Positions 3,001 through 63,991 of a stretch of DNA of 64,000 nt are shown in pieces (the first letter of the stretch is position 1; every line of letters begins with the position of its first letter). The stretch comes from a virus. Under the pieces are notes generated by a model. It saw nothing but the letters and a program-made list of their open reading frames with translations. It searched no databases and was not told the origin of the DNA. The translations under genes were made by a program, and so were the position numbers. The stretch lies in the IMG/VR virus record IMGVR_UViG_3300008117_008517, positions 108,577-172,576 of that record. One strand, given 5' to 3'.

Positions 3001-6000
3001 GGATCCTCGATGGTTGGATTCGGACTTGCCGCGGTAACACTAGGTGGAATAATAGTCGGTACTTTAGGTTTAGGAGGATTGGCCATCAAAGCTGGACTTT
3101 CTGCAGTTGAATCAATTGCAAAAACTATAGTGAAGACTGACAAAATATTAAGTGCTGGTCAATATACAAAGTACCCAGGTGCTGCTTGGGCTTTAACAGT
3201 TGGTTCAATTATTACAGCGTTTTCTACAGCAGTATTATTATTGGGTGCTGTTAGTTCAGGAGGAGGTCTCTTGCAAAAGTTGAGTCTTGGATTAGTAAAA
3301 AACCCATTAGAGTCAGGAATACAAGCAATAAAGAAAATAGCTCAAGCTATAGTAGATGTAGATAAAAAGTTAGCTGAAGGTAGTTATACTAAAGGTCCGA
3401 ATCCTACTTGGGCAAAAGGCATTTCCGCATCACTCTCTGCATTTTCACCAATTTACAGAATGTTATTAGCTGAAAAACTTATGAGTTTCATAGGTGGTGT
3501 CTCCGCTAAAGACTTTGCGCAAGCTATAAAAGTAATTTCTGGTGGAATAGTAGATTCCGCAAAACTCTTTGAAAGCGCAAAAGTTGCCTTTAAAAATGGA
3601 CCACCAGTTACTTGGTCAAAAGGTGTAAGTGCTTCACTCGGTGCGTTCTCATCAATATACTCACTACTCGTAAAAGATAAAATTATGAGTATTTTTGGAT
3701 CAGGAATCTCACCGAAAGATTTTTCTCAAGCTATTAAGACAATTTCTGGTGGAATAGTAGATGCCGCAAAATTATTTGGAAATGCTGCTGTAGCGTTTAA
3801 GAACGGGCCACCAGTTGAGTGGGCTAAGGGTATCAGTAAAGCACTTGGTGCTTTTTCATCTATCTATTCACTTCTAGTTAAGGATAGAATAATGAGTATA
3901 TTTGGTTCTGGTGTATCACCTAAAGACTTCTCGCAAGCGATTAAGACAATTTCTGGTGGTATAGTAGATTCTGCAAAGTTATTTGACAAGGCGTCTGTTG
4001 CATTCAAGAATGGTCCACCAGTTGAATGGGCAAATGGAGTTAGTAAATCTTTAGGAGCATTCTCATCTATATACAAATTACTAGCAAGTAATTCTGGTTG
4101 GTGGAAAAGTGGTGTCGATCCAAAAATGTATGCACAAGCTATAGTTACAATTACGAATGGAATTGTGACTGCGGCAAAGGCTTTCGGGTCGGCGTCAGTA
4201 GCATTTAAAAATGGTCCACCTGTTGAGTGGGCTGATGGGGTTGGTAAGTCACTCTCAGCGTTTCAGCCTATTTATGAACTATTATTAAAAAATTCTGGTT
4301 GGTGGAAGAGTGGTATAGATCCTAAAATGTATTCTCAAGCAATTGTGACTATAACTAGTGGTATAGTCACTGCTGCAAAGGCATTTGGTTCCGCATCGGT
4401 GGCGTTTAAAAATGGTCCACCGGTTGAATGGGCCGATGGAGTTGGTAAGTCACTAGCTGCCTTTCAACCTATATATGAGTTATTACTTAAAAATACTGGA
4501 TGGTGGAAAAGTAATATAGATCCAAAGAAATATGCACAAGCTATAGTCACTATAACTGGTGGTATAATCACCGCGGCTAAATCATTTAGTCAGGCTTCTG
4601 TTGCATTTAAAAATGGACCACCAGTCCAGTGGGCCGAAGGTGTTGGTAAGGCTCTTTCAGCATTTCAACCGGTATATGAATTACTGGTTAGAAATTCAAG
4701 TTGGTGGAAAAGTTCAATAGATCCTAAGAAATACGCTGAAGCGATAGTAACGATTACTGGTGGAATTGTAACTGCTGGTAAAGCATTCGGAGCAGCGGCT
4801 GTTGCATTTAAAAATGGTCCACCAGTTCAGTGGGCTGAAGGTGTCGGTAAAGCACTTTCAGCGTTTCAACCAGTCTATGAGATGTTGGTAAGAAATGCTA
4901 GTTGGTGGAAAAGTTCAATAGATCCTAAGAAATATTCAGAGGCTATACGAACGATTAGTAGAGGAATTACTGATGCCGCAATAGTGCTGTCTACCGCATC
5001 TGTTGCATATAAATTTTATCCAACAGAACAGTGGGCTTCTGGTGTAAGTAGAGCACTTACTGCATTTCAACCAATTTATAAGATTTTACAGAAAGATTCT
5101 GGATGGCTCAGAAGTGGTATTTCTCCAAAGATGTATGCCGATGCTATAAAGACAATTACAACTGGTATTCGAGACTCAGCGATGATTTTAGCACAAGCTT
5201 CGATTGCCTATAGAATGTTTCCAACAGTACAGTGGGCAAACGGTGTAAGTAGAGCTCTTAGTGTGTTCCAACCAATTTATAAAATTTTAGAAAAAGATTC
5301 TGGATGGTTGAGGTCTAATATATCACCAGAAAAGTACGCTAAAGCAATCAAAACAATAACTACTGGTATTCGAGACTCAGCGATGATCTTGGCTTCAGCT
5401 TCTATTGCTTATAGAATGTTCCCAACAGTTCAGTGGGCAAACGGTGTGAGTAGAGCTCTTAGTACTTTTCAACCAATATATAAGATTCTACAAAAAGATT
5501 CGGGTTGGTTCAGAAGTAACATATCTCCAGAGAAATATGCAACAGCTATAAAAACTATTACAACTGGAATAAGAGACTCGGCTGTGATTTTAGCCTCAGC
5601 TTCTCTTGCTTATAGAATGTTCCCAACAACACAGTGGGCAGACGGAGTTAGTAAGGCTTTAAGTACCTTTCATCCAATATACAAGATATTACAAAAAGAT
5701 TCAGGTTGGTTTAGAAGTAATATATCACCTGATAAGTATGCCGCGGCTATTCGTACTATTAGTCAAGGTATAGTTGATTCTGCTTTAATATTAGCAAAAG
5801 CAAAGTCCGCTTATAAGTCTTTCCCAACCACAGAATGGGCAGATGGTGTTAGTAGAGCACTTTCAGCTTTTCAACCTATTTATACGATACTACAAAAAGA
5901 TTCAGGATGGTTTAAAAGTGGAGTTTCAGTTGGTAAGTATAGTGAAGCTATAAAAACACTTAGTATGGGAATCGTAGATTCTGCGAACATACTTAGTAAG

Positions 6001-8721
6001 GGTTTGTATAAAATTTATCCAACAGTAAACTGGGTTATGGGAATATCAGGAGCTTTTGCAATGATACCAGCACTGATTAAGAAAGTAAACAACATTGATT
6101 TCAAGGGACTTTCTAAAATTTGGATGATAAGTGATAGTATTTACAAACTCTCGATTGCATTCAAGGACGCTAAGTTTACAAGTTTTCCGAGTAAAAAATG
6201 GACAAGTGCTATTTCATCATCTTTTACTATGATGATTAATCTTCTAAAGAGTATTGATAAAAGTATATCTATCACTTCACTACTTAGTGGTATTTTGAAG
6301 TCTAAATCCTTAGTTAATTACATTCTAGATTTGGATAAGAAATTTAGCCTCGGTAAATTTAACAAGTTTCCAAACTCAAATTGGGTTAAAGGGTCTACAA
6401 AGTCTATTAGTGAATTTGCGAAGTTACTCAGTGAACTTAATAAGTTGGTCTCTTTAGTAGGATTAAAGACTGGTCAATTCAAAATTTCGAGTATTCTGAA
6501 GTCTGTTTTGGATGTTGATAATCAGATATCTAGAGGTAAATTTAACAGAGTAATAAGTCAGAAATGGTCAAGTTCATTGAGAGTTTCAATACTAGAATTT
6601 TCAAACTTGTTTAAAAATGTAGATAAATTGATATCAATAATTGACTTAAAACTTGGTCAAACTAAAGTTACTAGTATCATTAAATCTATTCTACAAATCG
6701 ACCTACAAATTTCTAAAGGCAAATTTAATAAATTTATTGATAATAAGTGGATCAAAGGCACAAAATCTTCAATTATAGAGTTCGGTGGATTATTCAAAAC
6801 TATAGACAAATTAGTTTCAATAATTTCCTTAAAAATCGGCCAGACAAAGGTTACAAGTATCATCAAGTCAATACTTCAAATCGATTCACAAGTTTCAAAG
6901 GGTAAATTTAATAAATTTATTGATAATAAGTGGATTAAAGGCACAAAACAGTCTGTTCTAGAGTTCGGAAAATTGTTTATTGATGTTAATAAGAATTTCT
7001 CTGTGACTTCTTTATTACTTGGTTTTAATAAAGTCAAAATGATTTTTGATAATATTATATGGATTGATAATAAAATATCTAGAGCTAAATTTGAGAAATC
7101 ACCACCAACAAAATGGCTTACAAATACTAGAGATTCAATAGTTTATTACGGTAAATTGGCGATTGATTCTAATAAAATGTTCGGCACAGTGCCTCTAATA
7201 GCAGGTATCAAAAAGATTAAAACACTAGTAGATACAATTTTGTGGGTCGATAAGACTCTATCAAAGGGTAAATATAATAGAGTTCCAAGTTTAAAATGGC
7301 TAAACGAATCTAAAAATGCAATTTTTACATATGGTAAGATAGCAATCGATTCAAATAAGATCTTCCCTCTGATTTCACTTATAGCTGGTATTAAGAAGGT
7401 TAAAATGATATCAGAGGCTATACTATGGGTTGATAAAACACTATCTAAGGGAAGTTACACTAAAGTGCCAACGCAGAATTGGTTGACACGTTCAAAAAGC
7501 ACGATTTTTCAATACGGGAATCTAGCTATAGAATCAAATAAAAGGTTTGGAACAATTGGATTATTCTTAGGTCTGAAAAAAGTTAGAAATATTGCAGACA
7601 CTTTAAAATATGTTTCGCTTGTAATTAGCGGTGGTAATTATACTAAGTTTCCAAGCTTAGAATGGTCCAAGTCAGTTCCTGCGGCAATATCTGGCTTTAT
7701 GAATCTACCGTTTAAGGGAATGTTTGGTCAATTTTTTGAAAGTATTTTCGGGGCTTCAGAAGATAGTAAGAAATCACAATTAGGAAAAATTGTAGATTTG
7801 ATGTTATATGTTGATAAGAGATTTCAATCGGGTAACTGGAAAAAGTTCCCAACTGTTGAGTGGGTTAAAGGTACAATTTTAGCTCTTCAGAAATTTAAAG
7901 ATATAGTTTCTTTACTTAGTTTTGGTTCACTAAATACTAAGATAATGACTGCATTCGGTGGTAAGAATCCACTTGTAAGCGCAGTTTCTAACATTGAAAA
8001 ACTGGCACAGTCTTTTGATAAACTAGGAAATTCTATGAAGAATTTCAGTCAATCAATAAAAACTCTAGATACAGAAAAACTCGCAGCGATTAAGAGTCTT
8101 TCTTCAAATGTTATTTTAATGTCATTGATGAATCCAGAGCAATTTGACGCGATGTTATCTAAGTTAGAAGAAAGATCTGGAGTTTTTGCTGACCTTATGA
8201 AGGATGTGCAAGACAAGAAAGGTACTTCTGCTAAAACTACTGGTGCCCCTGGTACAGGTCAGAAAGTTGCAGGTGGTGGCGCAATGACTGATTTCAAGAT
8301 GGTACCATCATCTACGGGAGCTAGAATGTCTGGTAAATCAGATGATGCTAAAATGCTTGAGAAACTCGATGCTATGACAAGTCTACTCGCTGATATATCT
8401 AGTGTTGTTGGTAGTAAAGGAGCTTTGAAAACATACCTTGGAAGTCTTAAAGAAGATGTTGATATAGGTGATGGTGGGTTCTCACTTTTTAGTAGATCTG
8501 ATAAAAGAACCAAAAACATATTGAAAAAAGTTGGTGTATCACCAGATGGTATAAATATCTACTTATTCTCATATAAGTTTGATCCTACAGTAGTTTACCA
8601 AGGTGTAATTGCACAAGAGTTGCTTGGCACGAGATTTGAAAACTCAGTTGTACTTGATAAGTCTGGGTATTACGCAGTTGACTACTCAAAACTAGATGTT
8701 CAGTTTAAAAGAACAAATTGA
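1..8721 (+). CDS. Giant tape-measure-like tail protein with C-terminal S74-type chaperone domain (5' partial)
   Basis: The frame is open from base 1, so the gene very likely starts upstream; the first in-window ATG is at 58 (2,887 residues from there). Residues about 1-320 are charged and carry a repeated E-[LP]-T-T-x-K motif. Residues about 335-1085 hold many hydrophobic Ala/Ile/Gly-rich segments, as in tail tape measure proteins. Residues about 840-2610 contain some 28 units anchored on a Trp, with 67-69 residue spacing in the best-conserved stretch. The last 74 residues begin SDKRTKNIL and end around VDYSKL, with GVIAQE between, matching the intramolecular chaperone (peptidase S74) of phage fibres and spikes. 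Tape measures set tail length inside the tube and are oligomeric. A fibre role is less likely given the hydrophobic core. Family is inferred from architecture; the S74 match is clearer. Confidence 0.65.
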   Translation, partial: VQIKEDTQKILNQQDTILKMLREGKDTPNETKIKKIPSEPTTPKIGRQKLEENQENVRDTKSKDTTDTSFSKLKKFFTELTTTKIAKERQENTKDSSISKSENIQSELTTTKIAKERQEDNKDSSISKSEKIQSELTTTKIAKERQEDTKVLKLEKQSSSEGFLTRLHTILKREKEESIEERKSKAVTSDLTTMKMSKDIEKDKRTEFKETPVKTKGEVSFWNRLFPNKSINEKVKILSDYFTKGIISKDDKKVKKTDTELTTVKIQIEKQYGGRTTKEDKTVKAFSKEPTTVKVSRDRKEDSKDSKDSKIKKVSEEPTTTKVAKEKRDERRESKEEKSKGGMFGSMDTKKIKDGVSAILLIAVGIVAIGLALKLVGKVDFVSVMAIALALPLIAIAFAKIASVFSGKEVTDERGRKSRSAAIDIKQLPAIILGLVGFSAAITASSYILSKVKPIGLAQAVTAILIGGVFSALSFGLHRLVGAFGKMSLLGGVKAVLFMPVVLVAVSTAIALSSYVLSAVKPIGIFQAVTAILIAGVFSVLGYGIGKLIRAFRGIDPVTAFMAAKMMPIVLLAVTATIAAASYLLSAVKPIGFFQALTAILIAGVFTVLSFGIGKIIGSFRRIDPATALAATAMMPLIFIALSFSIMMSSYFLGNVKVIGLFQALTAIAISIVFVALSFGLAKILPAFRRLSPADITKAAIGMPIIFTALSLAIMVSSYFISGVKPIGFAQFLTALGISILFVGFAFATKFIVKGLKGVTTAQVVNAMKMLLIVATTVAIASFIVSVAPSVPFMKTLQFGLLGIGLGATTVVMAIAIKTIKKIGLGLKDILTGGLMILAIATTIALSSVILNMGTYEKYPSWKWALGVGASLVGFGLAAVVLGSIASSGIGALAILAGLASILAIAGTIVLTDKIISAGTYQKYPGAKWILGVGATMVGFGLAAVTLGGIIVGTLGLGGLAIAAGLVAVIGIAETIVKVDKIIAKGNYTKSPGVRWILGVGSSMVGFGLAAVTLGGIIVGTLGLGGLAIKAGLSAVESIAKTIVKTDKILSAGQYTKYPGAAWALTVGSIITAFSTAVLLLGAVSSGGGLLQKLSLGLVKNPLESGIQAIKKIAQAIVDVDKKLAEGSYTKGPNPTWAKGISASLSAFSPIYRMLLAEKLMSFIGGVSAKDFAQAIKVISGGIVDSAKLFESAKVAFKNGPPVTWSKGVSASLGAFSSIYSLLVKDKIMSIFGSGISPKDFSQAIKTISGGIVDAAKLFGNAAVAFKNGPPVEWAKGISKALGAFSSIYSLLVKDRIMSIFGSGVSPKDFSQAIKTISGGIVDSAKLFDKASVAFKNGPPVEWANGVSKSLGAFSSIYKLLASNSGWWKSGVDPKMYAQAIVTITNGIVTAAKAFGSASVAFKNGPPVEWADGVGKSLSAFQPIYELLLKNSGWWKSGIDPKMYSQAIVTITSGIVTAAKAFGSASVAFKNGPPVEWADGVGKSLAAFQPIYELLLKNTGWWKSNIDPKKYAQAIVTITGGIITAAKSFSQASVAFKNGPPVQWAEGVGKALSAFQPVYELLVRNSSWWKSSIDPKKYAEAIVTITGGIVTAGKAFGAAAVAFKNGPPVQWAEGVGKALSAFQPVYEMLVRNASWWKSSIDPKKYSEAIRTISRGITDAAIVLSTASVAYKFYPTEQWASGVSRALTAFQPIYKILQKDSGWLRSGISPKMYADAIKTITTGIRDSAMILAQASIAYRMFPTVQWANGVSRALSVFQPIYKILEKDSGWLRSNISPEKYAKAIKTITTGIRDSAMILASASIAYRMFPTVQWANGVSRALSTFQPIYKILQKDSGWFRSNISPEKYATAIKTITTGIRDSAVILASASLAYRMFPTTQWADGVSKALSTFHPIYKILQKDSGWFRSNISPDKYAAAIRTISQGIVDSALILAKAKSAYKSFPTTEWADGVSRALSAFQPIYTILQKDSGWFKSGVSVGKYSEAIKTLSMGIVDSANILSKGLYKIYPTVNWVMGISGAFAMIPALIKKVNNIDFKGLSKIWMISDSIYKLSIAFKDAKFTSFPSKKWTSAISSSFTMMINLLKSIDKSISITSLLSGILKSKSLVNYILDLDKKFSLGKFNKFPNSNWVKGSTKSISEFAKLLSELNKLVSLVGLKTGQFKISSILKSVLDVDNQISRGKFNRVISQKWSSSLRVSILEFSNLFKNVDKLISIIDLKLGQTKVTSIIKSILQIDLQISKGKFNKFIDNKWIKGTKSSIIEFGGLFKTIDKLVSIISLKIGQTKVTSIIKSILQIDSQVSKGKFNKFIDNKWIKGTKQSVLEFGKLFIDVNKNFSVTSLLLGFNKVKMIFDNIIWIDNKISRAKFEKSPPTKWLTNTRDSIVYYGKLAIDSNKMFGTVPLIAGIKKIKTLVDTILWVDKTLSKGKYNRVPSLKWLNESKNAIFTYGKIAIDSNKIFPLISLIAGIKKVKMISEAILWVDKTLSKGSYTKVPTQNWLTRSKSTIFQYGNLAIESNKRFGTIGLFLGLKKVRNIADTLKYVSLVISGGNYTKFPSLEWSKSVPAAISGFMNLPFKGMFGQFFESIFGASEDSKKSQLGKIVDLMLYVDKRFQSGNWKKFPTVEWVKGTILALQKFKDIVSLLSFGSLNTKIMTAFGGKNPLVSAVSNIEKLAQSFDKLGNSMKNFSQSIKTLDTEKLAAIKSLSSNVILMSLMNPEQFDAMLSKLEERSGVFADLMKDVQDKKGTSAKTTGAPGTGQKVAGGGAMTDFKMVPSSTGARMSGKSDDAKMLEKLDAMTSLLADISSVVGSKGALKTYLGSLKEDVDIGDGGFSLFSRSDKRTKNILKKVGVSPDGINIYLFSYKFDPTVVYQGVIAQELLGTRFENSVVLDKSGYYAVDYSKLDVQFKRTN
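235..450. repeat. 84-bp tandem coding repeat (about 2.6 copies)
   Basis: Copies start at 235, 319 and 403, exactly 84 bp (28 residues) apart, each starting with codons for ELTTTKIAKERQE. They lie in the charged N-terminal part of the tape-measure-like protein. The spacing and codon-level similarity suggest recent duplication in frame. Confidence 0.85.
3391..6000. repeat. Array of 67-69 residue Trp-anchored coding repeats
   Basis: Within the tape-measure-like gene the tgg codon of a P-P-V-x-W motif recurs at 3409, 3613, 3820, 4027, 4228 and 4429, i.e. every 201-207 bp, and the series continues with P-T-x-x-W variants. The units share an Ala-Phe-x-x-Ile-Tyr block and a WW-K-S block. More diverged units extend from about 2560 to about 7880. 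Copies differ at many synonymous positions, so most are not recent. Confidence 0.85.
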
Positions 8722-14085: not shown

Positions 14086-14958
14086 ATGAAATATCTTAAA
14101 CATTTCAATGAAGAGCTAAAACCTGAAACCTATATAACGGCTGGTAACAGTCTCAAATATTATGGAAAACATACAAAAGGCAATAAGCTAGTTGATTATG
14201 GATATGAGAAAGGCCACGGTTTTTATAATGCACACATACAATATGTCGGATTATCTCCAGTTTATACTGGTAAAATTACAAATCCAATTTGTAAATTCTA
14301 TTATGGAACGCCACAATGGGATGGTCCACAATCCGGTAATTCAAAATTAGTCCACACTAATTTATCAGAAGAACAATTAGTTAGCGATTGGAAAAATGGA
14401 AATGGGCCTCTATCATTTACATTAGAATTTAGATTCACCCCATCAGAAGAATTAAAATCGGATTTAAAAAAATTAAATGATGATGATAGGCTTAAATCCT
14501 CAATTAATCATTCGAATAGTTTTCACTTATTTACAATGAACGTAAGCTTGAGTGATTGGAATGAAGGATTAAAATACTATAATTATATAGAAGATGATGA
14601 TGAATTTATTGAACCAGGAGATCCAAACTATGTAGACTTAATAGATTTATATCAAAATACAAAGTCATTATCAATAAGATTAAGTAGATTAATGGATAAA
14701 GGCATTTATGGTATATTCGCTGATAGACAATCTGCACTTAAATTTAAAAGAAATTTACCTAGCCTAATAAATCCACACAAAGAAAAGATAATGAATTTAT
14801 TATCTATTATAGGTGGTGGTGCTGAAGAATTGGAAGATATTTTTGAATCTTTCGATATAATTAGAATTAACTCTTTATATCAGAGTGAGGATATAAAAGG
14901 CGTTAACTTACACAATACTTGGTATAAAGGATTTCTTTATATCAGAGTGAGGATATAA
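14086..14958 (+). CDS. Hypothetical protein with duplication-altered C-terminus
   Basis: 290 residues. The N-terminus MKYLKHFNEE fits the capsid-targeting-like pattern of this phage; the rest is soluble and unrecognised, with an acidic insert around DDDEFIEPGD. The last codons lie in a perfect 62-bp tandem duplication. Because 62 is not a multiple of 3, reading from copy 1 into copy 2 changes frame and gives the tail LYIRVRI. Removing one copy would give a protein ending WYKGFI with a stop at 14999-15001 (single-copy frame). The gene follows a TTAATATATAA box by 3 nt. Confidence 0.65.
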   Translation: MKYLKHFNEELKPETYITAGNSLKYYGKHTKGNKLVDYGYEKGHGFYNAHIQYVGLSPVYTGKITNPICKFYYGTPQWDGPQSGNSKLVHTNLSEEQLVSDWKNGNGPLSFTLEFRFTPSEELKSDLKKLNDDDRLKSSINHSNSFHLFTMNVSLSDWNEGLKYYNYIEDDDEFIEPGDPNYVDLIDLYQNTKSLSIRLSRLMDKGIYGIFADRQSALKFKRNLPSLINPHKEKIMNLLSIIGGGAEELEDIFESFDIIRINSLYQSEDIKGVNLHNTWYKGFLYIRVRI

Positions 14959-14995
14959 AAGGCGTTAACTTACACAATACTTGGTATAAAGGATT
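14872..14995. repeat. Perfect 62-bp tandem duplication
   Basis: 14872-14933 and 14934-14995 are identical. Flanking bases differ on both sides (c/t before, t/c after). The lack of any mismatch suggests a very recent event or an assembly artefact. It changes the 3' end of the gene at 14086. Confidence 0.95.
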
Positions 14996-50132: not shown

Positions 50133-51170
50133 ATGAAAAAAATTGCACTTATCACTGGAATCACGGGACAAGATGGTAAATACTTAGCTGAGTTACTATT
50201 GTCTAAAAATTATATTGTTCATGGAATTAAAAGAAGAAGTTCCTCTTTTAATACATCAAGAATAGACCATCTTTATGAGACACAGAGAGAGTCATTTTTC
50301 TTACATTATGGAGATCTCACTGATTCAACTAACCTGATTAGAATTATTCAAGAAGTTCAACCAGATGAAATTTATAATCTCGCCGCACAATCACACGTTA
50401 AGGTATCTTTTGAAACTCCCGAATATACTGCAAACGCTGATGCTATTGGAACCCTTAGAATTTTAGAGGCAATAAGAATTTTGGGACTTGAAAAAAAGAC
50501 TAAGTTTTATCAAGCCTCAACTAGTGAAATGTTTGGTTTGGTACAAGAAATCCCTCAAAAAGAAACTACACCATTCTATCCTAGAAGTCCTTACGGGGTG
50601 GCAAAATTATACTCACATTGGATTACTGTAAATTACAGAGAAGCTTATGGAATTTTTGCTTGTAGCGGCATACTATTTAATCATGAGTCTCCACTAAGAG
50701 GAGAGACATTTGTAACAAAAAAAATCACACAAGCTGTTGCTAAAATAAAATTAGGACTTGAAGATAGATTGCTACTTGGAAATCTTTCAGCTGAGAGAGA
50801 TTGGGGCCACTCAAAGGATTATGTTGAAGGTATGTGGCTTATGATGCAACATTCAAATCCTGACGACTTTGTTTTATCTACTGGTAAAAAAATATCAGTT
50901 AGAGATTTTACTACTATGGCTTTCAAATTTGTAAATATAGATATTGATTGGCAAGGATCTGGAATTGACGAGGTCGGTGTTGATAGAAAAACAGGTAAAG
51001 TTCTAGTTTCAGTTGATGAGAGGTATTTTAGACCTACCGAAGTTGATCTACTTATAGGAGATTCAACTAAAGCGTATGAAGTACTTGGTTGGAGACCAAA
51101 GTATGAAGTAGAGGAGCTTTGTAGAGAAATGGTTGAGTATGATTTGAAGTATTTTCAATCAAACAAATAG
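50133..51170 (+). CDS. gmd: GDP-mannose 4,6-dehydratase
   Basis: 345 residues, the usual length. It has the NAD(P)-binding loop GITGQDG (9-15), D-L-T-D-S (71-75), the NLAAQSHV block (82-89), the catalytic T130 and E132 in ASTSEMFG, and Y154-x-x-x-K158 in [22 protein letters not shown] and the [12 protein letters not shown] segment are family signatures. It converts GDP-mannose to GDP-4-keto-6-deoxymannose, the step before GDP-fucose or GDP-rhamnose-type sugars. In a phage it may alter host surface sugars or decorate virion proteins. All key residues are present. No partner epimerase or reductase is in the window. Confidence 0.93.
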
Positions 51171-51508: not shown

Positions 51509-51807
51509 ACTTTTACTTCTTTTTAGTTACTATTTATTATATTTTTTCTAGGAATCGTCTTTTGACTGATGTTAAAAATAGAAATTATACAAATAGATTA
51601 CTAGTTATCCTCGATTCGGTTTATTTCGCATCGATGATATTATACTTCGGATGGGTAGTATTTTTATTTTTTACAAATTTCTGGTTAGGAGCTACTCTAT
51701 CACTTCTATTAGTGGTTAGATGGTTCTTTTTAGATCCATTTAATATGAGAAGGGATATTCTTTATTGTATCATTAAAATGTGTACACTTTGTCTTATTAG
51801 AGGTTGA
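51505..51807 (+). CDS. Small membrane protein
   Basis: 100 residues with a hydrophobic N-terminus (about 1-14) and two strong membrane segments (about 33-55 and 58-72), joined by basic loops. The last residues overlap the convergent head-completion gene by 11 bp. No family was recognised. A holin would fit the size and topology but nothing else supports it. Confidence 0.55.
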   Translation: MNFYFFLVTIYYIFSRNRLLTDVKNRNYTNRLLVILDSVYFASMILYFGWVVFLFFTNFWLGATLSLLLVVRWFFLDPFNMRRDILYCIIKMCTLCLIRG

Positions 51808-52330
51808 ATCTTTTAAGGTGATCTTCAGTTATGATTATAAAATTCCATCCTTTTTTTTCACAGTATTTAATCATCGTTTTCCATTTCTCACTGTTTTTTT
51901 GAGCCATTTTTAGATCGTACTCAAAATTTTTTAATTTCTTTATCGAACTTTTAGAATCAGGTACTTGAAGTTTTTTTTCTTGTAGACTCAAAACCATTTT
52001 ATATTCTTTCATCGGTTTCACTTCAGCAATTACCTTTTTAGTAATTCCCTCTCCTTGTTCTATTTCATAATAAAAGTCTGGATAATAATTGTGACTTTTA
52101 ATTCTGATATCACCTTTATCATAATGGGTTAATTGATATGGAATTGTGATACACTCTGAGCCCCACTTAACTATTTTATCATTAGCATCTAACCAAGTCA
52201 TTATTTTCAATTCCCAAGAACTTCTATAATAAACACCACCTTGAGAATTTAATTTTAAGACTTTTTGAGTGTGTGTTGGAATGAAATTTCCTTGATGGTA
52301 GTTACTATTTTTGGGTGCACTGTTTAACAT
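51797..52330 (-). CDS. Head completion nuclease (T4 gp4-like)
   Basis: 177 residues from the ATG at 52330; an in-frame ATG at 52348 would overlap the divergent start codon and is judged less likely because the promoter box lies between. The order G-N-F-I-P-T, YRSSWELKIMTWLD, WGSECITIPY, YYPDFYYEIE and IAEVKP, with N-S-E-K-W near the end, matches the T4 gp4 head-completion family. The E-x-x-x ... D ... E-x-K residues form a PD-(D/E)xK-type nuclease site. It acts on filled heads before tail joining. It shares a 16-bp divergent start region with the next gene. Confidence 0.85.
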   Translation of the reverse strand: MLNSAPKNSNYHQGNFIPTHTQKVLKLNSQGGVYYRSSWELKIMTWLDANDKIVKWGSECITIPYQLTHYDKGDIRIKSHNYYPDFYYEIEQGEGITKKVIAEVKPMKEYKMVLSLQEKKLQVPDSKSSIKKLKNFEYDLKMAQKNSEKWKTMIKYCEKKGWNFIIITEDHLKRFNL

Positions 52331-52332
52331 CC

Positions 52333-52343
52333 TAATATATATT
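52333..52343. promoter_or_regulatory. Palindromic bidirectional late-promoter candidate
   Basis: taatatatatt contains the perfect palindrome aatatatatt and fills the 16 bp between two divergent ATGs (52330 minus, 52347 plus), 2 nt from one and 3 nt from the other. Confidence 0.55.
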
Positions 52344-52346
52344 GAC

Positions 52347-53042
52347 ATGGGTGCTCTACAAGAAAGGATAAAACTTAATCAGAAAGTTTTTGGTAAAAAT
52401 ATAGTAGATTTTTATAAGAGTAATGTGATTTTTATGGTTGATAAGTATTCAAAATCTGATGATATGTGCACTGCAATCTCTATTTCTGATATAACTACTG
52501 GTAGATTTTATTTTTTTCACTATCAAGATCCTTCAAATTGGATGAAATACTCACCGGTTTTTGTTGTGGGATTTAAACAAATTAGAGACTTGAAAATTAT
52601 TCTTGCATTGAATTTCAATTTCATACCACTTGAAATAAGAGCTGGTATTTTTGATAAATTTATTATAGAGAGGAATTTTAAAGACGATGATAGTTTAGAG
52701 GTAGATTTTCAGGGAGTTTATAGAGAATTACTAAAATTCGGATTTGAATATTCAATAGTTGAATACAACGCTATACAATTGAATTTAGTTCATCAAATTA
52801 ATTTAGAACTATTACCAAGATTTTTATATTCATCACATCCTAAAAATACATATGATCCGAATAAACTTATGGAAATATGGACTAAGAAGTTAGAAACAAG
52901 AAAAGAAAGACACGAAGAAATGATGTCAGCTATATTGTCTGAATTTTACGATGTTACTGGTGCAATATCAGAGAAGTATGAACAATTAGAATCACATATA
53001 AAAAGACTTCAAAATAGTTTAAATAAATTCATGAACAAATAA
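52347..53042 (+). CDS. Hypothetical structural-type protein next to the head-completion gene
   Basis: 231 residues from the ATG at 52347. Residues about 40-105 read FVVGFKQIRDLKIILALNFN and FIPLEIRAGIFDKF after F-Y-F-F-H-Y, a pattern seen in uncharacterised T4-like proteins. The last 60 residues are a coiled coil. T4 places wedge and DNA-end-protector genes next to gene 4, so a head or baseplate role is possible, but no homology to those proteins was seen. Confidence 0.55.
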   Translation: MGALQERIKLNQKVFGKNIVDFYKSNVIFMVDKYSKSDDMCTAISISDITTGRFYFFHYQDPSNWMKYSPVFVVGFKQIRDLKIILALNFNFIPLEIRAGIFDKFIIERNFKDDDSLEVDFQGVYRELLKFGFEYSIVEYNAIQLNLVHQINLELLPRFLYSSHPKNTYDPNKLMEIWTKKLETRKERHEEMMSAILSEFYDVTGAISEKYEQLESHIKRLQNSLNKFMNK

Positions 53043-53079: not shown

Positions 53080-54117
53080 ATGAAAACAATTTTTCTTGAA
53101 TATATCTGGTTAGACGGTAATTACCCACAAAGACTAAGATCGAAGACTAAGATCGTAGAAGTTAAAAATGAAGATAAATTGAAATTATCAAATTGGGGTT
53201 TTGATGGATCATCTACTTCACAAGCTGAGACTTCTAAATCAGAAATGGTTCTTGTTCCTGTAAATAAGTTTAAAGATCCATTCAGGGAAAATGGCTACTT
53301 CGTAATGTGTGAAGTGTATAATACAGATATGACTCCTCACTCTACTAACAAGCGATACACTCTTTCTGAGACTGTAGAAGAGTCTGATGAAGAAACACTC
53401 TATGGTTTTGAGCAAGAGTACATAATTTATGATAATAAAACCGGAAAACCACTTGGATGGCCTAAAGATGGGTTTCCAAGACCACAAGGTGACTATTATT
53501 GTGGAGTTGGTGGTAATAATGTGTCTGGTAGAAAATTTGTCGAAAAACACGCTGAGTATTGTATAAACGCAGGTTTGAATTTTACTGGAATTAATGCTGA
53601 GGTAATGCTTGGACAATGGGAATATCAAATCGGTCCGGTGAAAGCACTTGATGGTTCGGATCAACTTTGGATTTCAAGATATATTTTAGAAAGATTATCA
53701 GAAGAATTTGATTATTCTATTGAGTTTCACCCTAAACCTTATCAAGGAAACGACTGGAATGGAAGTGGAATGCATGTCAACTTTTCAACATCAGATATGA
53801 GAAAAAACTTCAAAGAAAAGAAAAAACTAATTGTTGAAGCTTGTGAGAAACTAGGTAAATCAGTAGAGAACCATATTAAAGTTTATGGAGTTGGAAATGA
53901 ACTTAGACTAACTGGTACTAATGAAACATGCTCTATAAATCAATTTAAATATGGAATTGGTGATAGAACCGCGTCAATTAGAATTCCTTTCTCAGTTACT
54001 GATGAAACAACTCCGGGATATCTAGAAGACAGAAGACCAGCATCAAACGCAAATCCATATGAAATTTGTGATGTTATGATAAAAACAATCTGTGTTGGTT
54101 CAGAAGTTGGAATTTAA
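53080..54117 (+). CDS. glnA: Glutamine synthetase, type II (GSII)
   Basis: 345 residues, normal for GSII. Signatures in order: NWGFDGSSTSQA (about 38-49), YGFEQEY with the metal-binding Glu (about 108-114), AEVMLGQWEYQIGP (about 168-181), DWNGSGMHVNFST (about 227-239), GNELRLTG (about 272-279), SIRIPFSV and YLEDRRPASNANPYE near the end. Every metal- and substrate-binding motif is intact. It makes glutamine from glutamate, ammonia and ATP. In phage-infected cells this could support nucleotide synthesis or change nitrogen signalling. A strong terminator follows; base use looks like that of the neighbours. Confidence 0.93.
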   Translation: MKTIFLEYIWLDGNYPQRLRSKTKIVEVKNEDKLKLSNWGFDGSSTSQAETSKSEMVLVPVNKFKDPFRENGYFVMCEVYNTDMTPHSTNKRYTLSETVEESDEETLYGFEQEYIIYDNKTGKPLGWPKDGFPRPQGDYYCGVGGNNVSGRKFVEKHAEYCINAGLNFTGINAEVMLGQWEYQIGPVKALDGSDQLWISRYILERLSEEFDYSIEFHPKPYQGNDWNGSGMHVNFSTSDMRKNFKEKKKLIVEACEKLGKSVENHIKVYGVGNELRLTGTNETCSINQFKYGIGDRTASIRIPFSVTDETTPGYLEDRRPASNANPYEICDVMIKTICVGSEVGI

Positions 54118-54219: not shown

Positions 54220-55899
54220 ATGGCATCAACATATAATCCTCTAAATCAAGGCAGTAATGTACAATACCTTAATTCAGCTATAGAAAATAGAGGACTCTTT
54301 AGTAGAATACTTAGAAATCTTTCATCATGGGGTATGAACTATGACGATATGATTATGAGAAATCAAGTAGGTATCGGTATAAACGAAGACCCATATTCTC
54401 AACAAGGTAATTCTATGTATGACTTTTTTAGTAAAAGAGCTGTAGCATCAGTTCTTAACAGGAAGTCAATACCTTATCTAGATAGATCATATTCTGATAA
54501 AAGAAGAATTTTAAGAGAGTACTCGATCAAAGACGAAATAAGAGATTTTGTTTCTACAGTTTGTGATGAGGCGGTAATCTATTCAGAAAAAGATTTTTGT
54601 AGTCCTAAAAACTTATCTACCGACCTTTCACAAGATATCAGGGATAAGTATCAAGAATCTTTCGAAAAAATTTATAATAGATATGGATTTTCAGATTCTG
54701 TTACTGCTTGGAATTTGATGAAAGATTTTTTGATTGATGGTTATGTTGCTATGGAAATTGTATGGGATGATAAAAATAAAAATATTGTACACTTTAATCG
54801 TCTAAGACCAGAAACTTTAGTTCCAGCATTTGAGCCTTCTATAGGAAATTTGTGGATTCAATATCCAGAAGATCCTCAACTTAGAAGAATTTTCTTAGAC
54901 TCACAAATTATTTTTATCTCATATACAACTCAAAATGACTATTCAGAAACATCTTATGTTGAAGGTTTGATTAAACCGTATAATCAACTTAAAATTATTG
55001 AGCAGACTAAAATTATGTTTAACATAATTAACGCAACTGTTTATCAAAAATTTACAATTCCTGTAAAAGGTCTTTCAAGACAGAGAGCTGAGGAACAAAT
55101 TGGCCAACTTATAAACGATTATTCTGAAGAGGTTGAATGGGATGATACACTAGGTACTCTTCAAATTAACGGAACAAAACATCTTCCTTATAATAAACAA
55201 ATTTGGTTTCCAGAAGGTGACGCTGGTACTCCTAATATGGAACTAGTTTCACCTCAGGGCCACAATCTTAATGAGGACGATATTCTAAAATGGTTTTTTA
55301 ATATTTTAAAAAGGGCTTCAAAAATACCAGTGCAAAGATTTGAAGGCGACAATGGTGGTGGTAATGTCTTTACTGATGCTGCTGAGATGACAAGAGATGA
55401 GGCAAAGTTCAGTAATTTTGTTAATAGATTAAGAGCTAACTTTAAAGAATTAATCGTTAAGCCTCTTAAATTACAAATGCTCGTGGAATTTCCCGAATTA
55501 AAAAATGATGAAATAGTACTTAATCAAATTGATATTGACTTTGTATCTAATCAGCTTTTTGAAGAATGGAAGAAACTTGGAAACATGGCAAAAAAGATAG
55601 AGATACTTGGTAGTTATACAGGTATACAAAAGGCAGATGGTACTCCTTATTTTCACATTGAATATTTGATTGACCATGTCCTAAGGCTATCTGCAGAAGA
55701 AAAAGAAGAAAATAGAAGATATTGGATTAAAGATTCAGCGGGAGCTGGTTCTTCTGATGCTACTCCAAGTGAGATGCCTGAGGGCACAGAGACACCGACT
55801 GAAACTCCTACCGAAACACCGACTGAAACTCCAGAGACTCCAGAGGCAGGTGGAGAAGAGGGTGGTGAGGGAGAGGCAGGTGGAGAATTTGAATTTTAA
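54220..55899 (+). CDS. Portal protein (T4 gp20-like)
   Basis: 559 residues, close to T4 gp20 (524). The core contains DEIRDFVSTVCDEAVIY (about 108-124), the DGYVAMEIVWDD block and F-N-R-L-R-P-E-T (about 190-200), a portal crown/stem region with VQRFEGDNGGG and a D-E-A-K-F-S-N-F-V-N segment. The last 60 residues are low-complexity Glu/Thr/Pro/Gly. Twelve copies form the vertex through which terminase packages DNA and the tail attaches. It begins the head module and is followed by a truncated endonuclease remnant on the other strand. Confidence 0.9.
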   Translation: MASTYNPLNQGSNVQYLNSAIENRGLFSRILRNLSSWGMNYDDMIMRNQVGIGINEDPYSQQGNSMYDFFSKRAVASVLNRKSIPYLDRSYSDKRRILREYSIKDEIRDFVSTVCDEAVIYSEKDFCSPKNLSTDLSQDIRDKYQESFEKIYNRYGFSDSVTAWNLMKDFLIDGYVAMEIVWDDKNKNIVHFNRLRPETLVPAFEPSIGNLWIQYPEDPQLRRIFLDSQIIFISYTTQNDYSETSYVEGLIKPYNQLKIIEQTKIMFNIINATVYQKFTIPVKGLSRQRAEEQIGQLINDYSEEVEWDDTLGTLQINGTKHLPYNKQIWFPEGDAGTPNMELVSPQGHNLNEDDILKWFFNILKRASKIPVQRFEGDNGGGNVFTDAAEMTRDEAKFSNFVNRLRANFKELIVKPLKLQMLVEFPELKNDEIVLNQIDIDFVSNQLFEEWKKLGNMAKKIEILGSYTGIQKADGTPYFHIEYLIDHVLRLSAEEKEENRRYWIKDSAGAGSSDATPSEMPEGTETPTETPTETPTETPETPEAGGEEGGEGEAGGEFEF

Positions 55900-55908
55900 T
55901 GTGAGGGT

Positions 55909-56277
55909 CTAAACTTCTTCAGAAGTTTTTCTTTTTTCAGAAATAGTTTGCTTCATTTTTCTGTAGATTCTTTTATTCTGAATCGGATATTCAACTCCAT
56001 AATTTTTTTGTAGAGTTTCTTTTCTTTTATACTCTGAGCATTTTCTACAATAATAAATTCCAAACTCGTTACCGTATTTTATATAATTTTTAAAAATAAC
56101 TTTTTTTACTACTCCACATCCATCGCACTGACAGTCAATTTTTTGATGAGAACCCTTTGATAAAAGATCTATTGGAATAATAATTTCGTCTCCTATTGAA
56201 ATATCATATCCTAAATTTTCGAAATAGTGAAAATTTGATTCAGAAATTTTTATTGTTATCTCTCTATTAAGAATCAT
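55909..56277 (-). pseudogene. Truncated homing endonuclease remnant
   Basis: 122 residues. The N-terminal domain parallels the enzyme at 47930 residue by residue: F-x-x-L-G-Y-D-I-x-I/V-G, then K-I-D-C-x-C-D-x-C, a second Cys pair (YYCRKC) and N-Y-G-V-E-Y-P. It stops after a basic segment and lacks the whole catalytic EDxHD part. It ends 9 bp from the portal stop and sits between portal and protease genes. It may be a decayed element or a retained DNA-binding domain. Confidence 0.7.
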
Positions 56278-56431: not shown

Positions 56432-58654
56432 ATGAAATCAGTTCTTATTGTTGAGAATTCTATGAATTCTCTGAATATCTCAGAGAGTAACAATAAGGAA
56501 GATCAATTTGTTTTAGGTGGTATTTTTACAGAATTCGATGTAAAAAATCGAAATGAAAGAGTATATACTGCTGACAGATTTCTTCCTTGCCTTCAAGAGT
56601 TAAATGAGAGAATAGAATCTATGGGTGTTGTATATGGTGAGTTTGATCACCCAGATGTATTTGATACTTCACTTTCAAGAGCTTCTCACATTGTAACTAA
56701 GGCACATTATGTTAAAGAAAATAACAGAGTAGAAGGTGAGATTAGATTACTTAATACTCATTGGGGAAAAGAAGCTAAGGCTCTAGTTGGAGATAACTGT
56801 CCAATATTCGTATCATCAAGAGCTGCTGGAATAACTGAGTCAGACGGTACAGTAACACTTAAAAAATTATTTACTTACGATATTGTTGCTGATCCTGGAT
56901 TCGCATCTGCAAAAATGAATGTTAAGATACTTAATGAATCTTTAAATTATTCAAATAACGCTAACTTTAGGATATATGAAATGTCCGATGAGTCAAAAAT
57001 AAACGATCTATTTAATATGAACACTAACGATTTGGTGACAAAACAACAATTGACTGACTACTCTCAGTATTTGGTCAATGAGTTAGCTTCTACTAAGAAA
57101 GAAGTTCGTAACGCTATCAAGAAGGGTAATTTAAATCCTAAAAAATTGGAGCAGTTACTTGAATACTATGAGAATTTGAATGAGACTAATTCTCAAATTT
57201 TAAAATATTTAGATTATTTGGCTGAGAAAGTACAAATAGTTGTAAATGAAAACACAGATTTGAAAAACACTGCTGACAGATTGATTAAACATAGTGATTA
57301 CTTGGCTGAAAATTTAGAAAAAGCAATCAACTATACTGAGTATGTTGCAGAAAATCTTGATAAGAATATTGAGTATTCTGAATATATCGCAGAAAATTTG
57401 GATAAGAACATTTCTTATGCTGAATATATCGCTGAGAATTTAGATAAGAATATTTCTTATGCTGAATATTTGGCTGAAAACTTAGACAAAAACATCGCAT
57501 ATTCAGAATATCTTGCAGAAAATTTGGACAAGAACATCGCATATTCAGAGTATATCGCTGAGAATTTAGATAAGAATATTTCTTATGCTGAATATTTGGC
57601 AGAGAATTTAGATAATTCTATCGCATACTCAGAGTATCTTGCTGAGCATGTGGAAGGTAATATCGCTTATTCTGAATATATCGCAGAGAACTTAGATGAC
57701 AACATTGCTTATTCAGACTATATCGCAGAAAATCTTGACAAATCAATTTCTTATCAGAGTTTGATTGTTGAGAAATTAAATGGTGGTAAATTGTTCGAAA
57801 GTAACGAAGAAGAAGAAAGACTTCCACTTTTGAATGTTGTTGGTATTAATTCATATGAAGAGGAAGAAGAGGAAGAAGGTGATAAGTATGGTGAAGGTGA
57901 AAACTGGAACGACTCAGCTGAATCTCCAACTTCTGAAGAAACACCACAAGTAGGTGAATCAAATGATACCGAAGAACATCTAGTAGTTGCAGAATCTAAT
58001 GAAGCTGAAGAGACTCAATCAGAAGCTGAAGAAACTCAGTCTGAAACTGAAACTCAATCAGAATCTGAAGAAACTCAGTCTGAAGCTGAAGAAACTACTG
58101 GTGAGACAGAAGAAAAAAGATACGAAGGTAATTCTGATTCAGAATTATCACAATCTATTGATAAATTGATCGAAGAAGCTAAAAAACGTAAAGCTACTGA
58201 AACATCCGATCTACATTTCCTAACGTTTTTAACAAAATCTCAGGTTGATAGCTACTATTCTTTGACAAACGAAGAACAAGACGCTGTTAAACTTTACATA
58301 AGCGAAAAAAGTTTCTTTACACAAGTTGATGTGTTGAGATTAATATCTGAGGCTTTAACTGCTAAAAACGAATCTCTTGAAGAAAGAGTAATCAGATTGA
58401 TGCCTGAAAACATCAAGCCAATCTGGAACCAATTAAATGAGAATGCTAGAAAATCTATCTTATCACAAGCTAGATTATACCCATCTGAAGTAATGGCAAC
58501 TGATTCACAAGTTGATCACTTCTGGATGACTAGAAATCTCAAGAAAAACGAATCTGTAACTAAGAAATTAGTTTCACATGAAAGCATGATTCAAGAAGAT
58601 AGAATATCTGAAAAAGAATTGGGAGCAATCATGGAGAGATTCAAAAACTTATAA
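56432..58654 (+). CDS. Prohead protease (gp21-like) fused to scaffold core
   Basis: 740 residues. Residues about 25-165 match the T4 prohead protease (S77): GGIFTEFDVKNRNERVY, GEFDHP with H73, VSSRAAG with S128/S129 and FTYDIVADPGFASA near 148-160. The rest is scaffold-like: a helical region, 11 near-identical 14-residue units (about 289-441), a Glu/Thr-rich acidic region (about 465-570) and a helical C-terminal domain (about 580-740). In T4, protease (gp21) and scaffold (gp22) are separate genes. I-S-E at 16-18 could be a self-cleavage site. The gene lies between portal and capsid genes, as expected. Confidence 0.85.
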   Translation: MKSVLIVENSMNSLNISESNNKEDQFVLGGIFTEFDVKNRNERVYTADRFLPCLQELNERIESMGVVYGEFDHPDVFDTSLSRASHIVTKAHYVKENNRVEGEIRLLNTHWGKEAKALVGDNCPIFVSSRAAGITESDGTVTLKKLFTYDIVADPGFASAKMNVKILNESLNYSNNANFRIYEMSDESKINDLFNMNTNDLVTKQQLTDYSQYLVNELASTKKEVRNAIKKGNLNPKKLEQLLEYYENLNETNSQILKYLDYLAEKVQIVVNENTDLKNTADRLIKHSDYLAENLEKAINYTEYVAENLDKNIEYSEYIAENLDKNISYAEYIAENLDKNISYAEYLAENLDKNIAYSEYLAENLDKNIAYSEYIAENLDKNISYAEYLAENLDNSIAYSEYLAEHVEGNIAYSEYIAENLDDNIAYSDYIAENLDKSISYQSLIVEKLNGGKLFESNEEEERLPLLNVVGINSYEEEEEEEGDKYGEGENWNDSAESPTSEETPQVGESNDTEEHLVVAESNEAEETQSEAEETQSETETQSESEETQSEAEETTGETEEKRYEGNSDSELSQSIDKLIEEAKKRKATETSDLHFLTFLTKSQVDSYYSLTNEEQDAVKLYISEKSFFTQVDVLRLISEALTAKNESLEERVIRLMPENIKPIWNQLNENARKSILSQARLYPSEVMATDSQVDHFWMTRNLKKNESVTKKLVSHESMIQEDRISEKELGAIMERFKNL
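57296..57754. repeat. Eleven 42-bp coding repeats in the scaffold part
   Basis: 459 bp encode 11 units of about 14 residues of the form [SA]-E-Y-[IL]-A-E-N-L-D-K-N-I-x-Y. The 14-residue period equals two heptads, so a long coiled coil is expected. Synonymous differences between units show they are not all recent copies. Confidence 0.95.
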
Positions 58655-58693: not shown

Positions 58694-60433
58694 ATGTCAC
58701 ACATTAGAATAGACAAACAAAAAGCAGTTAAGAAGTGGGCTCCTGTATTGGAGAACATGGGTGTTACTGGTGAAAGAGTTGACTGGATGGCAGAATATGC
58801 TGAGTTTCACTCTATTAACGAAAACGCTTACGCTAATGCTACTACTGCTGGTATGGGTCAAGTAATTGCTCCAACTCCAAATGCACTTCCTGGTAACCTT
58901 AACTTAGGTAACACAATTGGTACAAACGGTGTAGGATCTGGAGATCTTGGTCAAAACCTTTTACCAGTAGCTATGAAAATCGCAGCTCAGACTATCGGTC
59001 TTGACCTAGTTGCTGTAAAACCATCACCTGGTCCAAAAATCGATCTTCTTTATATTGACTTCCAATATGATGATGTAAACACAGAAAGTGGTATTAATTC
59101 AAGACCACAGGTTTTCAAACTTACAGGTGCTACAAATTTATCAACTGCTATAGGAACTGTTTCTACTTATGTAACTACTACTCAGGGTTATAAATTAACA
59201 TCTGGTGGTATTCAGGGAGGTAGAGTATTTGCAACAATTGCAACCGCTTCTACGGTATCTGGAGCACCATCAGCTGGAGCTTTTTATATCGCATCAACAG
59301 AACCAACAGTTAAAGCAGGTATAGTTGAATTCTTGGGATTCTCAAGAGTTGATGGATATCCGATGTTTAAGACCTATAGACAAGTTAATGCATTTGGTCC
59401 AGGTGGATATTCTTCACTTACTAACTACTCTTTTGAAGCTCAGTATAACACATTCAATGCAACTGGGTCAATGACCGCTCAAATTACGACTGTTGGTACT
59501 CAGCCACTTACTGGCACAGTTACTATTGACTTGGTATCTGCACTCGAAGATCATCTTCCAGGATTTTCAGCTAACTGGACATCTAATATTGCATCAGGTG
59601 ATTATCCAATGAGTCGTCAGACTGATGATAATACATATTCAGGTATCATCGGTCCTAAGGTATCTTCTAAGTCAATTCAAGTAGGTACAGTTGAAGTTTC
59701 AACTGCACTTAGAAGAACTGAAATTGAAGACATCAAGGCTAACACTGGTATGGACATCGTTCAGAAGATGGAATCAATTCTTGTTAATGAATTGTCTCAG
59801 ACAATTTCAAGACAAATTGTTAATAAGATTTTTGAACTTGGTGACAGAAACAGAAATACATCGCCAGTACAAACTGGATTAGGTGTTACTGTAGTCGGAA
59901 CAACTGCATCTTCTATATTCGACTTGAATACAGTTTATGCTCAATCTGCAGTTGTTGGTGGTGAAACTACACACGCTGTTCAACGTAAGTTGATCACTAA
60001 GATGGTTCATGCTTCTAACTACATTGCAACAGAAGGACGTGTTGGTCCAGCTCAATTCGCTGTAACAAACGGAGGTCTTGCTGCATCACTTATGGATATC
60101 GCTGGATATACAATTAACCCAGTTAAATCTAAAATCACTGGTCAAGGTCAATTGTACCCTGTTGGTCAAATTGGTGATATTTCTATCTATGTTGATCCTT
60201 ATATGAAGTATAATGATAACAGAATTGTTGTTGGTAGAAAGAACAACCCTGATCAACCAGGTCTTATCTTCATTCCTTACTTGATGGCTCAGTCTATCAG
60301 TGTAATTTCTGAAGCTACTTTTGCACCAAGAATGTTACTACGTTCTAGATATGCAATCGCAGATGTTGGTTTCTTCCCAGAGAAGCAATATATGACTATT
60401 GTTGTAACTGATAACGCACAGTTGTTGAACTAA
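58694..60433 (+). CDS. Major capsid protein (T4 gp23-like)
   Basis: 579 residues. It begins MSHIRIDKQKAVKKWAPVLE with a basic helical propeptide. I-N-E at 41-43 followed by NAYANATTAG is a likely maturation site. The body has LLPVAMKIAAQTIGLDLVAV (about 93-112), a Gly/Pro loop, and a C-terminal half with ALRRTEIEDIKANTGMD and YVDPYMKYNDNRIVVGRK, typical of gp23-like HK97-fold capsids. The leader is A-rich (caaaaatttaaaaaaatATG) and a strong terminator follows, consistent with high expression. Confidence 0.92.
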   Translation: MSHIRIDKQKAVKKWAPVLENMGVTGERVDWMAEYAEFHSINENAYANATTAGMGQVIAPTPNALPGNLNLGNTIGTNGVGSGDLGQNLLPVAMKIAAQTIGLDLVAVKPSPGPKIDLLYIDFQYDDVNTESGINSRPQVFKLTGATNLSTAIGTVSTYVTTTQGYKLTSGGIQGGRVFATIATASTVSGAPSAGAFYIASTEPTVKAGIVEFLGFSRVDGYPMFKTYRQVNAFGPGGYSSLTNYSFEAQYNTFNATGSMTAQITTVGTQPLTGTVTIDLVSALEDHLPGFSANWTSNIASGDYPMSRQTDDNTYSGIIGPKVSSKSIQVGTVEVSTALRRTEIEDIKANTGMDIVQKMESILVNELSQTISRQIVNKIFELGDRNRNTSPVQTGLGVTVVGTTASSIFDLNTVYAQSAVVGGETTHAVQRKLITKMVHASNYIATEGRVGPAQFAVTNGGLAASLMDIAGYTINPVKSKITGQGQLYPVGQIGDISIYVDPYMKYNDNRIVVGRKNNPDQPGLIFIPYLMAQSISVISEATFAPRMLLRSRYAIADVGFFPEKQYMTIVVTDNAQLLN

Positions 60434-63247: not shown

Positions 63248-63991
63248 TTAATATATCTTAATTATTTTATCTGACTTGTTGTATATTGAATTTACTAATA
63301 CAGTTAACCACTTTTCTTTATCTTTTCGATACAAATCGTCACTTATTCGGACTATTCTCCAGTCGTTACCTATTACCCATTCTTCTAATAATCTATCTTT
63401 GGCTTGTTTTTCTTCTAATTGTCCGTATATGTCTTTGAAGTGCCAAATTCCGTCGTATTCTACTATCACTTTAAGATCATTTGAATAAATATCTCTTGTC
63501 AAAATTGTCTCTTTATATTTAAATCCACCTCCTGATGTCCATTTATGTATTTTATAATTTTCTTTCAGATAATTTTTAATTTCTTCTTCGCCTTTTGATG
63601 TGAACCTTTTGTTTCTATTGGTATTGTTTCTTATTATTTTATTTGCATATTCTTCATTTTTCCACAGATTTTTACTAGAATCAGATATTTTCTTTTTTGT
63701 CTCAATTGAAGATCTTGATTTAGAACAAGAGTCAGAGCAAAAAAATCTATTTTTTCTTTTTCTAAATTTACTACTGACTTCGTTTATTTTAAATTCCTTA
63801 CCACACGTATTGCACGAAACATCGTGTTCTACAACTAATCTGTTTTTCTCATAATATTTCTTTTTTGCCTCTGATATTTTATTACCTCCTTTATCTCCAT
63901 TTGTGGTGTTTTTATCACACCATCTTACATGATTCGCATATATAGAGTGTATACCTTCTATTTCTTTGTTACAATATTTACAAACTTTCAT
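63248..63991 (-). CDS. Homing-endonuclease-like protein with zinc fingers and Vsr-like nuclease fold
   Basis: 247 residues. Two zinc-finger-like units open the protein: C-K-Y-C ... H-x-x-x-x-x-C (3-25) and C-N-T-C ... C-S-D-S-C (about 60-90). A basic linker follows, then a C-terminal domain with VIVEYDGIWHFKD (about 173-185) and W-R-I-V-R-I-S-D-D (about 212-220), as in Vsr/DUF559-type free-standing phage endonucleases. It is convergent with the tmRNA gene. The start is 10 bp from the window edge, with tATATATG-like context. Confidence 0.72.
   Translation of the reverse strand: MKVCKYCNKEIEGIHSIYANHVRWCDKNTTNGDKGGNKISEAKKKYYEKNRLVVEHDVSCNTCGKEFKINEVSSKFRKRKNRFFCSDSCSKSRSSIETKKKISDSSKNLWKNEEYANKIIRNNTNRNKRFTSKGEEEIKNYLKENYKIHKWTSGGGFKYKETILTRDIYSNDLKVIVEYDGIWHFKDIYGQLEEKQAKDRLLEEWVIGNDWRIVRISDDLYRKDKEKWLTVLVNSIYNKSDKIIKIY

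Follow-up and report, generated by a model that had tools for sequence, protein, structure and literature searches.

In T4, the prohead protease gp21 and the core scaffold gp22 are the products of two genes, which stand in the order portal, protease, scaffold, capsid. The protease cuts after [LI]-x-E, and the core proteins gp22, gp67 and gp68 are degraded to peptides (PMC9026906, PMC9958956); its own activation removes nine N-terminal residues (PMC9958956), and the T4 core holds ~576-580 copies of gp22 per 55-100 of gp21 (PMC9958956, PMC5694885). Protease and scaffold have also been described as one protein. In P2, which belongs to another phage lineage, gpO is a single polypeptide with an N-terminal protease (residues 1-141) and a C-terminal scaffold (195-284) that cleaves both itself and the capsid protein, and its description mentions no repeat array (PMC7552001). 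Freshwater phages carry genes annotated as "prohead core scaffolding protein and protease" (PMC9723584), an annotation that is also given to ORF-300 of Tenacibaculum phage PTm1.

We analysed a window of 64,000 nucleotides (the whole stretch of DNA studied here) from a virus record of 172,576 bases, in which a single gene joins a gp21-type protease domain to a regular array of predicted cleavage sites. The likeness to T4 gp21 (MEROPS S77; PF03420) extends to the protease fold, the H/S/D triad, the candidate N-terminal activation site and the [IL]-x-E motif, and the T4 gene order is kept, as is the dense [IL]xE content of a scaffold that T4 degrades to peptides. T4 differs in its use of two genes, in the irregular spacing of the gp22 sites and in a gp22 without detectable relation to the array or to the C-terminal domain of the fused protein. 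The initial annotation was correct that T4 keeps the two functions in separate genes, but the fusion is not peculiar to this phage, as P2 gpO, PTm1 and the freshwater phages show. The fusion is already known; what is new is the regular, predicted cleavable array with its conserved unit number. Our literature search found no description of a regular 14-aa array with one cut motif per unit and ~11 units across a megaphage clade. The features are as follows (a slash marks a predicted cut).

54220-55899, + strand: gp20-like portal gene (Pfam Portal_T4, 1e-56; phrog_213, 1.4e-56)
56432-58654, + strand: fused gene for prohead protease and predicted cleavable scaffold, 740 aa (ORF; homologues all fused)
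56432-56941, + strand: gp21-type serine protease domain, aa 1-170, with H73, S128 and D150 (hhalign, Foldseek, phrog_207)
56447-56458, + strand: predicted N-terminal activation site IVE8/N9 (aligned to T4 gp21 LIE9/T)
56930-56941, + strand: predicted protease-scaffold junction site LNE169/S170 ([IL]NE/S in 61/61 homologues)
56942-57289, + strand: helical linker, aa 171-286, with a degenerate unit YLAE265/K (AF2 helices 204-231 and 236-271; conserved columns)
57290-57751, + strand: array of eleven 14-aa units Y-S-E-Y-[IL]-A-E/N-L-D-K-N-I-A, aa 287-440 (repeat phase, alignment, AF2)
57752-58132, + strand: array end (LIVE447, LFE456/S) and low-complexity acidic linker, aa 441-567 (conserved LFE/S column)
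58133-58651, + strand: conserved C-terminal helical domain, aa 568-740 (34-sequence alignment; AF2)
58694-60433, + strand: gp23-like major capsid protein gene, a predicted substrate (Pfam Gp23, 6.5e-27; phrog_138, 2.1e-24)
58814-58825, + strand: predicted capsid propeptide site INE43/N44 ([ILM]xE in distinct capsid N-termini)

The gene begins at an ATG in the ORF list, and the coordinates first assigned to it hold. A small reverse-strand gene (55909-56277) lies between it and the portal gene, and the capsid gene follows; this portal, protease-scaffold and capsid neighbourhood is that of a T4-like megaphage, with the nearest relatives among phages of 634-735 kb. The best phage matches to the fused gene are LR756502 (642 kb), LR745206 (635 kb), LR756501 and LR756503 (735 kb) and LR756504 (636 kb). 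Searches returned 84 related loci and 61 distinct full-length homologues, every one of which (61/61) keeps the fusion. The homologous fused gene of Lak megaphages (Prevotella phages) shares the junction site and the C-terminal region but has an acidic linker where the array would be and no 14-aa units, and with the Lak protein as query we recovered only one close relative from viral contigs. PTm1 ORF-300 is likewise a homologous fusion between portal and capsid genes, with the invariant junction Glu and a strong [IL]xE excess; its repeats, however, are ~16 aa long, few and irregular, and it has no 14-aa Y-[IL]-A-E array. These PTm1 repeats (L089:5992-7758; KELSEGIEKWIK and similar) carry LSE/G; repeated cut sites possibly arose here independently.

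Several other features of the window were recorded. The reverse-strand genes at 55909-56277, 51797-52348 and 63248-63991 resemble zinc-finger or homing-type endonucleases by eye and are inserted among head genes, and in several relatives a similar gene lies directly ahead of the fused gene. A glutamine synthetase gene (53080-54117, + strand; Pfam catalytic and N-terminal domains) is directly upstream of the portal gene, and a GDP-mannose 4,6-dehydratase gene is found at 50133-51170 (+ strand; Pfam E 3e-154). At 58-8721 (+ strand), a tape-measure-like protein of 2,887 aa has a 67-aa sequence repeated in tandem about twelve times as well as membrane-like stretches, and a stretch at its C-terminus resembles, by eye, an S74-type intramolecular chaperone. 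A perfect 62-bp tandem duplication (100% match) occupies 14872-14995.

The N-terminal domain matches the T4 gp21 profile with an hhalign probability of 99.9% (E 3e-33) and phrog_207 at E 1.6e-26, and a Foldseek search with the AF2 model placed the T4 gp21 chains of 5jbl at the top (E 1.3e-6), followed by herpesvirus proteases; against Pfam PF03420 (gp21) it scores 21.1 bits, below the curated cut-off of 27. By predicted fold, profile similarity and H/S/D triad, it is classified as a T4 gp21-type protease (MEROPS S77), in agreement with the gp21-like protease first proposed. H73, S128 and D150 align with H85, S140 and D168 of T4 gp21, which we take to be the T4 catalytic triad, and are invariant across 39 sequences, as is S129. 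A triad has been described for the SPN3US protease, the alignment of which is consistent with this choice (PMC5694885). Among the catalytic residues named in the initial annotation, H73 and S128/S129 are retained, and D154, replaced by Thr in Lak and PTm1, gives way to the invariant D150.

The protease is predicted to cleave after [LI]-x-E in head proteins, and the motif is conserved at the expected sites. These candidate sites outside the array, as well as the C-terminal domain (aa ~568-740), had been overlooked initially. Alignment with T4 gp21 runs from the first residues and sets IVE8/N on MNEPQLLIE9/T, and I[VI]E/[NH] is present at the N-terminus of 60/61 homologues; the nine residues that T4 gp21 sheds from its N-terminus on activation give this position a parallel established by experiment. 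At the junction, E169 does not vary even when clade B, Lak and PTm1 are included. The capsid site is represented by [ILM]xE in 67/67 distinct N-termini (66 matched by pattern, and the one with TINEN assigned by eye), and its P1′ residue is Asn in all but one of them. Within the array, P1′ is Asn in 72% and His in 23% of units, which agrees with the capsid site, as it should if a single enzyme acts on both sites; the T4 gp23 site, by contrast, has Ala at P1′.

The array units, eleven as originally counted, are contiguous, starting at aa 287, 301 and so on to 427, and Y[IL]AE is found in 10 of the 11, with YVAE in the remaining one (aa 304-307). The predicted cuts fall after E293 and then every 14 residues up to E433; a degenerate twelfth unit (YLAE, 262-265) lies upstream and LIVE (444-447) downstream. 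At the DNA level, Tandem Repeats Finder reports the array at 57332-57742 with periods of 42/84/126 nt. Compared to composition-preserving shuffles, the array has 10 [IL]xE against 4.6 expected (p 0.006) and 11 [ILV]xE[NSAGH] against 1.8 expected (p 0.0002), with no excess of the control motif [IL]xD. Because the units are duplicates of one another, comparative conservation, with a near-fixed P1 Glu among homologues, counts for more than this excess; on both grounds the earlier observation that the units fit the T4 consensus is confirmed. The positive control, T4 gp22, was similarly enriched (16 [IL]xE where 5.7 were expected, [IL]xD not in excess), as were the PTm1 fused scaffold (18 vs 6.7) and a cyanophage gp22 (13 vs 6.2), and PAU gp152 was not (4 vs 2.5). 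Dense sites thus appear typical of T4-type scaffolds, of which the array would be a regularised form.

From the architecture, the protease homology, the conservation pattern and the absence of a recognisable gp22, all directly observed, we infer with a probability of roughly 0.7 that the product of the gene is a prohead core protein which unites protease and scaffold and dices itself. Portal and capsid protein would assemble around this fused protein, which would enter the prohead through its helical rod and C-terminal domain and act there as the internal scaffold. Once the shell is complete, the gp21-type domain would activate by cutting its own N-terminus at IVE8/N, free itself at LNE169/S, remove the capsid propeptide at INE43/N and cleave the rod unit by unit, each time behind the Glu of Y-[IL]-A-E. 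The array products would be 14-residue peptides running from Asn to Glu (e.g., NLDKNIAYSEYLAE and NLDKNISYAEYLAE), which would exit the head ahead of DNA packaging. Dicing is favoured by the one motif that is common to the N-terminus, the junction, the capsid propeptide and the array. Self-digestion of the scaffold, which had been proposed from this sequence at the outset, is therefore well supported by comparison (P1 and P3 conservation, sites outside the array, absence of gp22, the excess in T4 gp22), and cutting itself is the predicted step. Against dicing, a continuous helix must unfold locally in order to be cut, the 462 kb phage (L086) keeps Glu in some units only, and neither the array nor the C-terminus has detectable homology to gp22.

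A different reading, which we consider improbable, is that the array is purely a structural helical rod or ruler of fixed length (~11 units), in which Y-[IL]-A-E packs rods or binds the capsid and the [IL]-x-E is coincidental to packing. Its strongest points are the predicted continuous helix, the invariance of Y4, A6 and I13, and the unit number: the comparison among relatives suggested earlier gave exactly 11 contiguous units in 47/61 distinct homologues (range 7-15), with 10-12 throughout genomes of 476-735 kb, over which a dependence of unit number on genome size was rejected. In the main clade Y1, Y4, A6 and I13 are nearly invariant and yet unneeded by the protease, so some of the conservation reflects structure or binding. 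The P1 position behaves otherwise. The 61 distinct homologues yield 676 units with 131 different sequences (units within one protein, and homologues, are not independent of each other); all but one of these units (675/676) have Glu at position 7, and Asp replaces it in 0/131 distinct units and never in the main clade. By comparison, 13 distinct units have Asp in place of Glu at position 3, and 21 have Glu in place of Asp at position 10 (Fisher 6e-5 and 2e-7 against position 7, uncorrected for relatedness). P3 is I or L, freely exchanged, with 8-13% V, and in this it differs from the other hydrophobic positions (L/V preferred at 9, I/V at 13). With a period of 3.5 residues, the hydrophobic stripe of the predicted helix comprises positions 2/9, 5/12 and 6/13; positions 7 and 14 both lie on the opposite, outer face, where 7 hardly changes and 14 varies more than any other position. 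A near-fixed, solvent-facing residue is poorly explained by helix packing and would be explained by recognition of an extended P4-P1 peptide. A distant clade (the 462 kb phage and relatives) keeps the 14-aa period and Y..Y[ILV]xE, with conservation at positions 1, 4, 5 and 7 (P3 [ILV] 100%, P1 Glu 75%), while P2 varies freely among A, V, K, I, N, S and G, and positions 9, 12 and 13 drift as well. A purely structural role is also at odds with this retention of P3 and P1 and with the return of the motif at three cut positions that lie outside the array and are defined by function.

It is less probable still that cuts are confined to the junction, N-terminal and array-flanking sites and that the freed rod remains as an internal or injected head protein: the junction sites are E/S and invariant and some T4 core fragments do stay in the head (PMC9026906), but the array sites share the P1′ Asn of the capsid site, and an enrichment as dense as that of T4 gp22 suggests full dicing. 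Equally remote is the view that the repeats form a tail of the protease without being the scaffold and that the core comes from a separate, unrecognised gene, as the fused protein's lack of gp22 homology (hhalign probability 0.2% for C-terminus and array against the gp22 profile phrog_237) and the several proteins of T4 cores (PMC9958956) might suggest, given that the ORF list holds no further forward-strand gene between portal and capsid fit to be a core protein, that phrog_237 searches found no gp22 in the window's record, six complete huge-phage genomes or PTm1 (T4 control E 9e-96), and that the related fused gene of PTm1 is annotated as scaffold plus protease.

Under the self-dicing reading, the scaffold role is suggested by gene position, predicted helix, motif and gp22 absence, and the fused protein would resemble gp22 in function, as an [IL]xE-rich helical core protein, and not by homology. 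AF2, run on an alignment of the window and viral-contig loci only, predicts aa 276-449 as a single continuous helix of 174 residues (~26 nm if fully helical; pLDDT ~73), in a whole model of moderate confidence (array pLDDT ~73, pTM 0.26) with the acidic linker region (aa 441-567) unstructured (pLDDT mostly 25-38). The rod of two-heptad modules envisaged in the initial annotation is matched as to the continuous helix; its coiled-coil two-heptad packing is plausible. The C-terminal domain (173 aa) is predicted to be all-helical (pLDDT 76), with A583, P658, W665, F697 and W698 invariant in a 34-sequence alignment reaching PTm1, and is probably the end by which the scaffold binds shell or core. 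Foldseek found no match for it in the PDB, and a PDB sequence search with the whole protein gave nothing significant; weak Pfam matches (DUF1549, bZIP and similar families) were rejected as helical or low-complexity artefacts.

The fusion would fix protease and scaffold at 1:1 unless a scaffold-only product exists, so the tie between protease dose and scaffold that had been proposed follows from the fusion and holds only without such a nested product. Met184 and Met196 are conserved candidates for a nested start like that of lambda Nu3. Synonymous variability shows no clear reduction at either of them, Shine-Dalgarno sequences are absent from the start sites of this clade, and synonymous constraint in the C-terminal part is modest.

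Between 1 and 4 copies of the 14-aa Y-[IL]-x-E unit were also observed in small, unrelated proteins encoded far from the head genes in three megaphage genomes (LR745206, LR756501 and that of a 508 kb phage), at the following loci.

L124:1453-1704, - strand: unit-bearing small gene
L125:1120-1743, + strand: unit-bearing small gene
L160:5118-5315, - strand: unit-bearing small gene
L127:825-1511, + strand: unit-bearing small gene

A three-unit HMM matches ORFs of 83 aa in LR745206, of 65 aa in the 508 kb phage and of 207 aa in LR756501, the last of which contains a collagen-like stretch. Two of the unit-bearing small genes come after a similar short gene. In the 65-aa protein the P1 Glu is missing from 2/3 units, so that the unit may serve packing apart from cleavage. 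We tentatively raise the idea, doubtful as it is, that Y-[IL]-A-E units form a portable core-packing and cut-here module, which as an array makes up the scaffold rod and in one to four copies recruits unrelated small proteins into the prohead core, where they are then trimmed. If true, such a module would parallel the T4 capsid-targeting sequence but be made of the scaffold's own repeat.

Scaffold removal is directly testable with the array, from which a set number of cuts should release a recurring 14-residue peptide that starts with Asn and ends with Glu. The array would also offer a natural, regular protease substrate, for which sister clades lacking the array are available for comparison.
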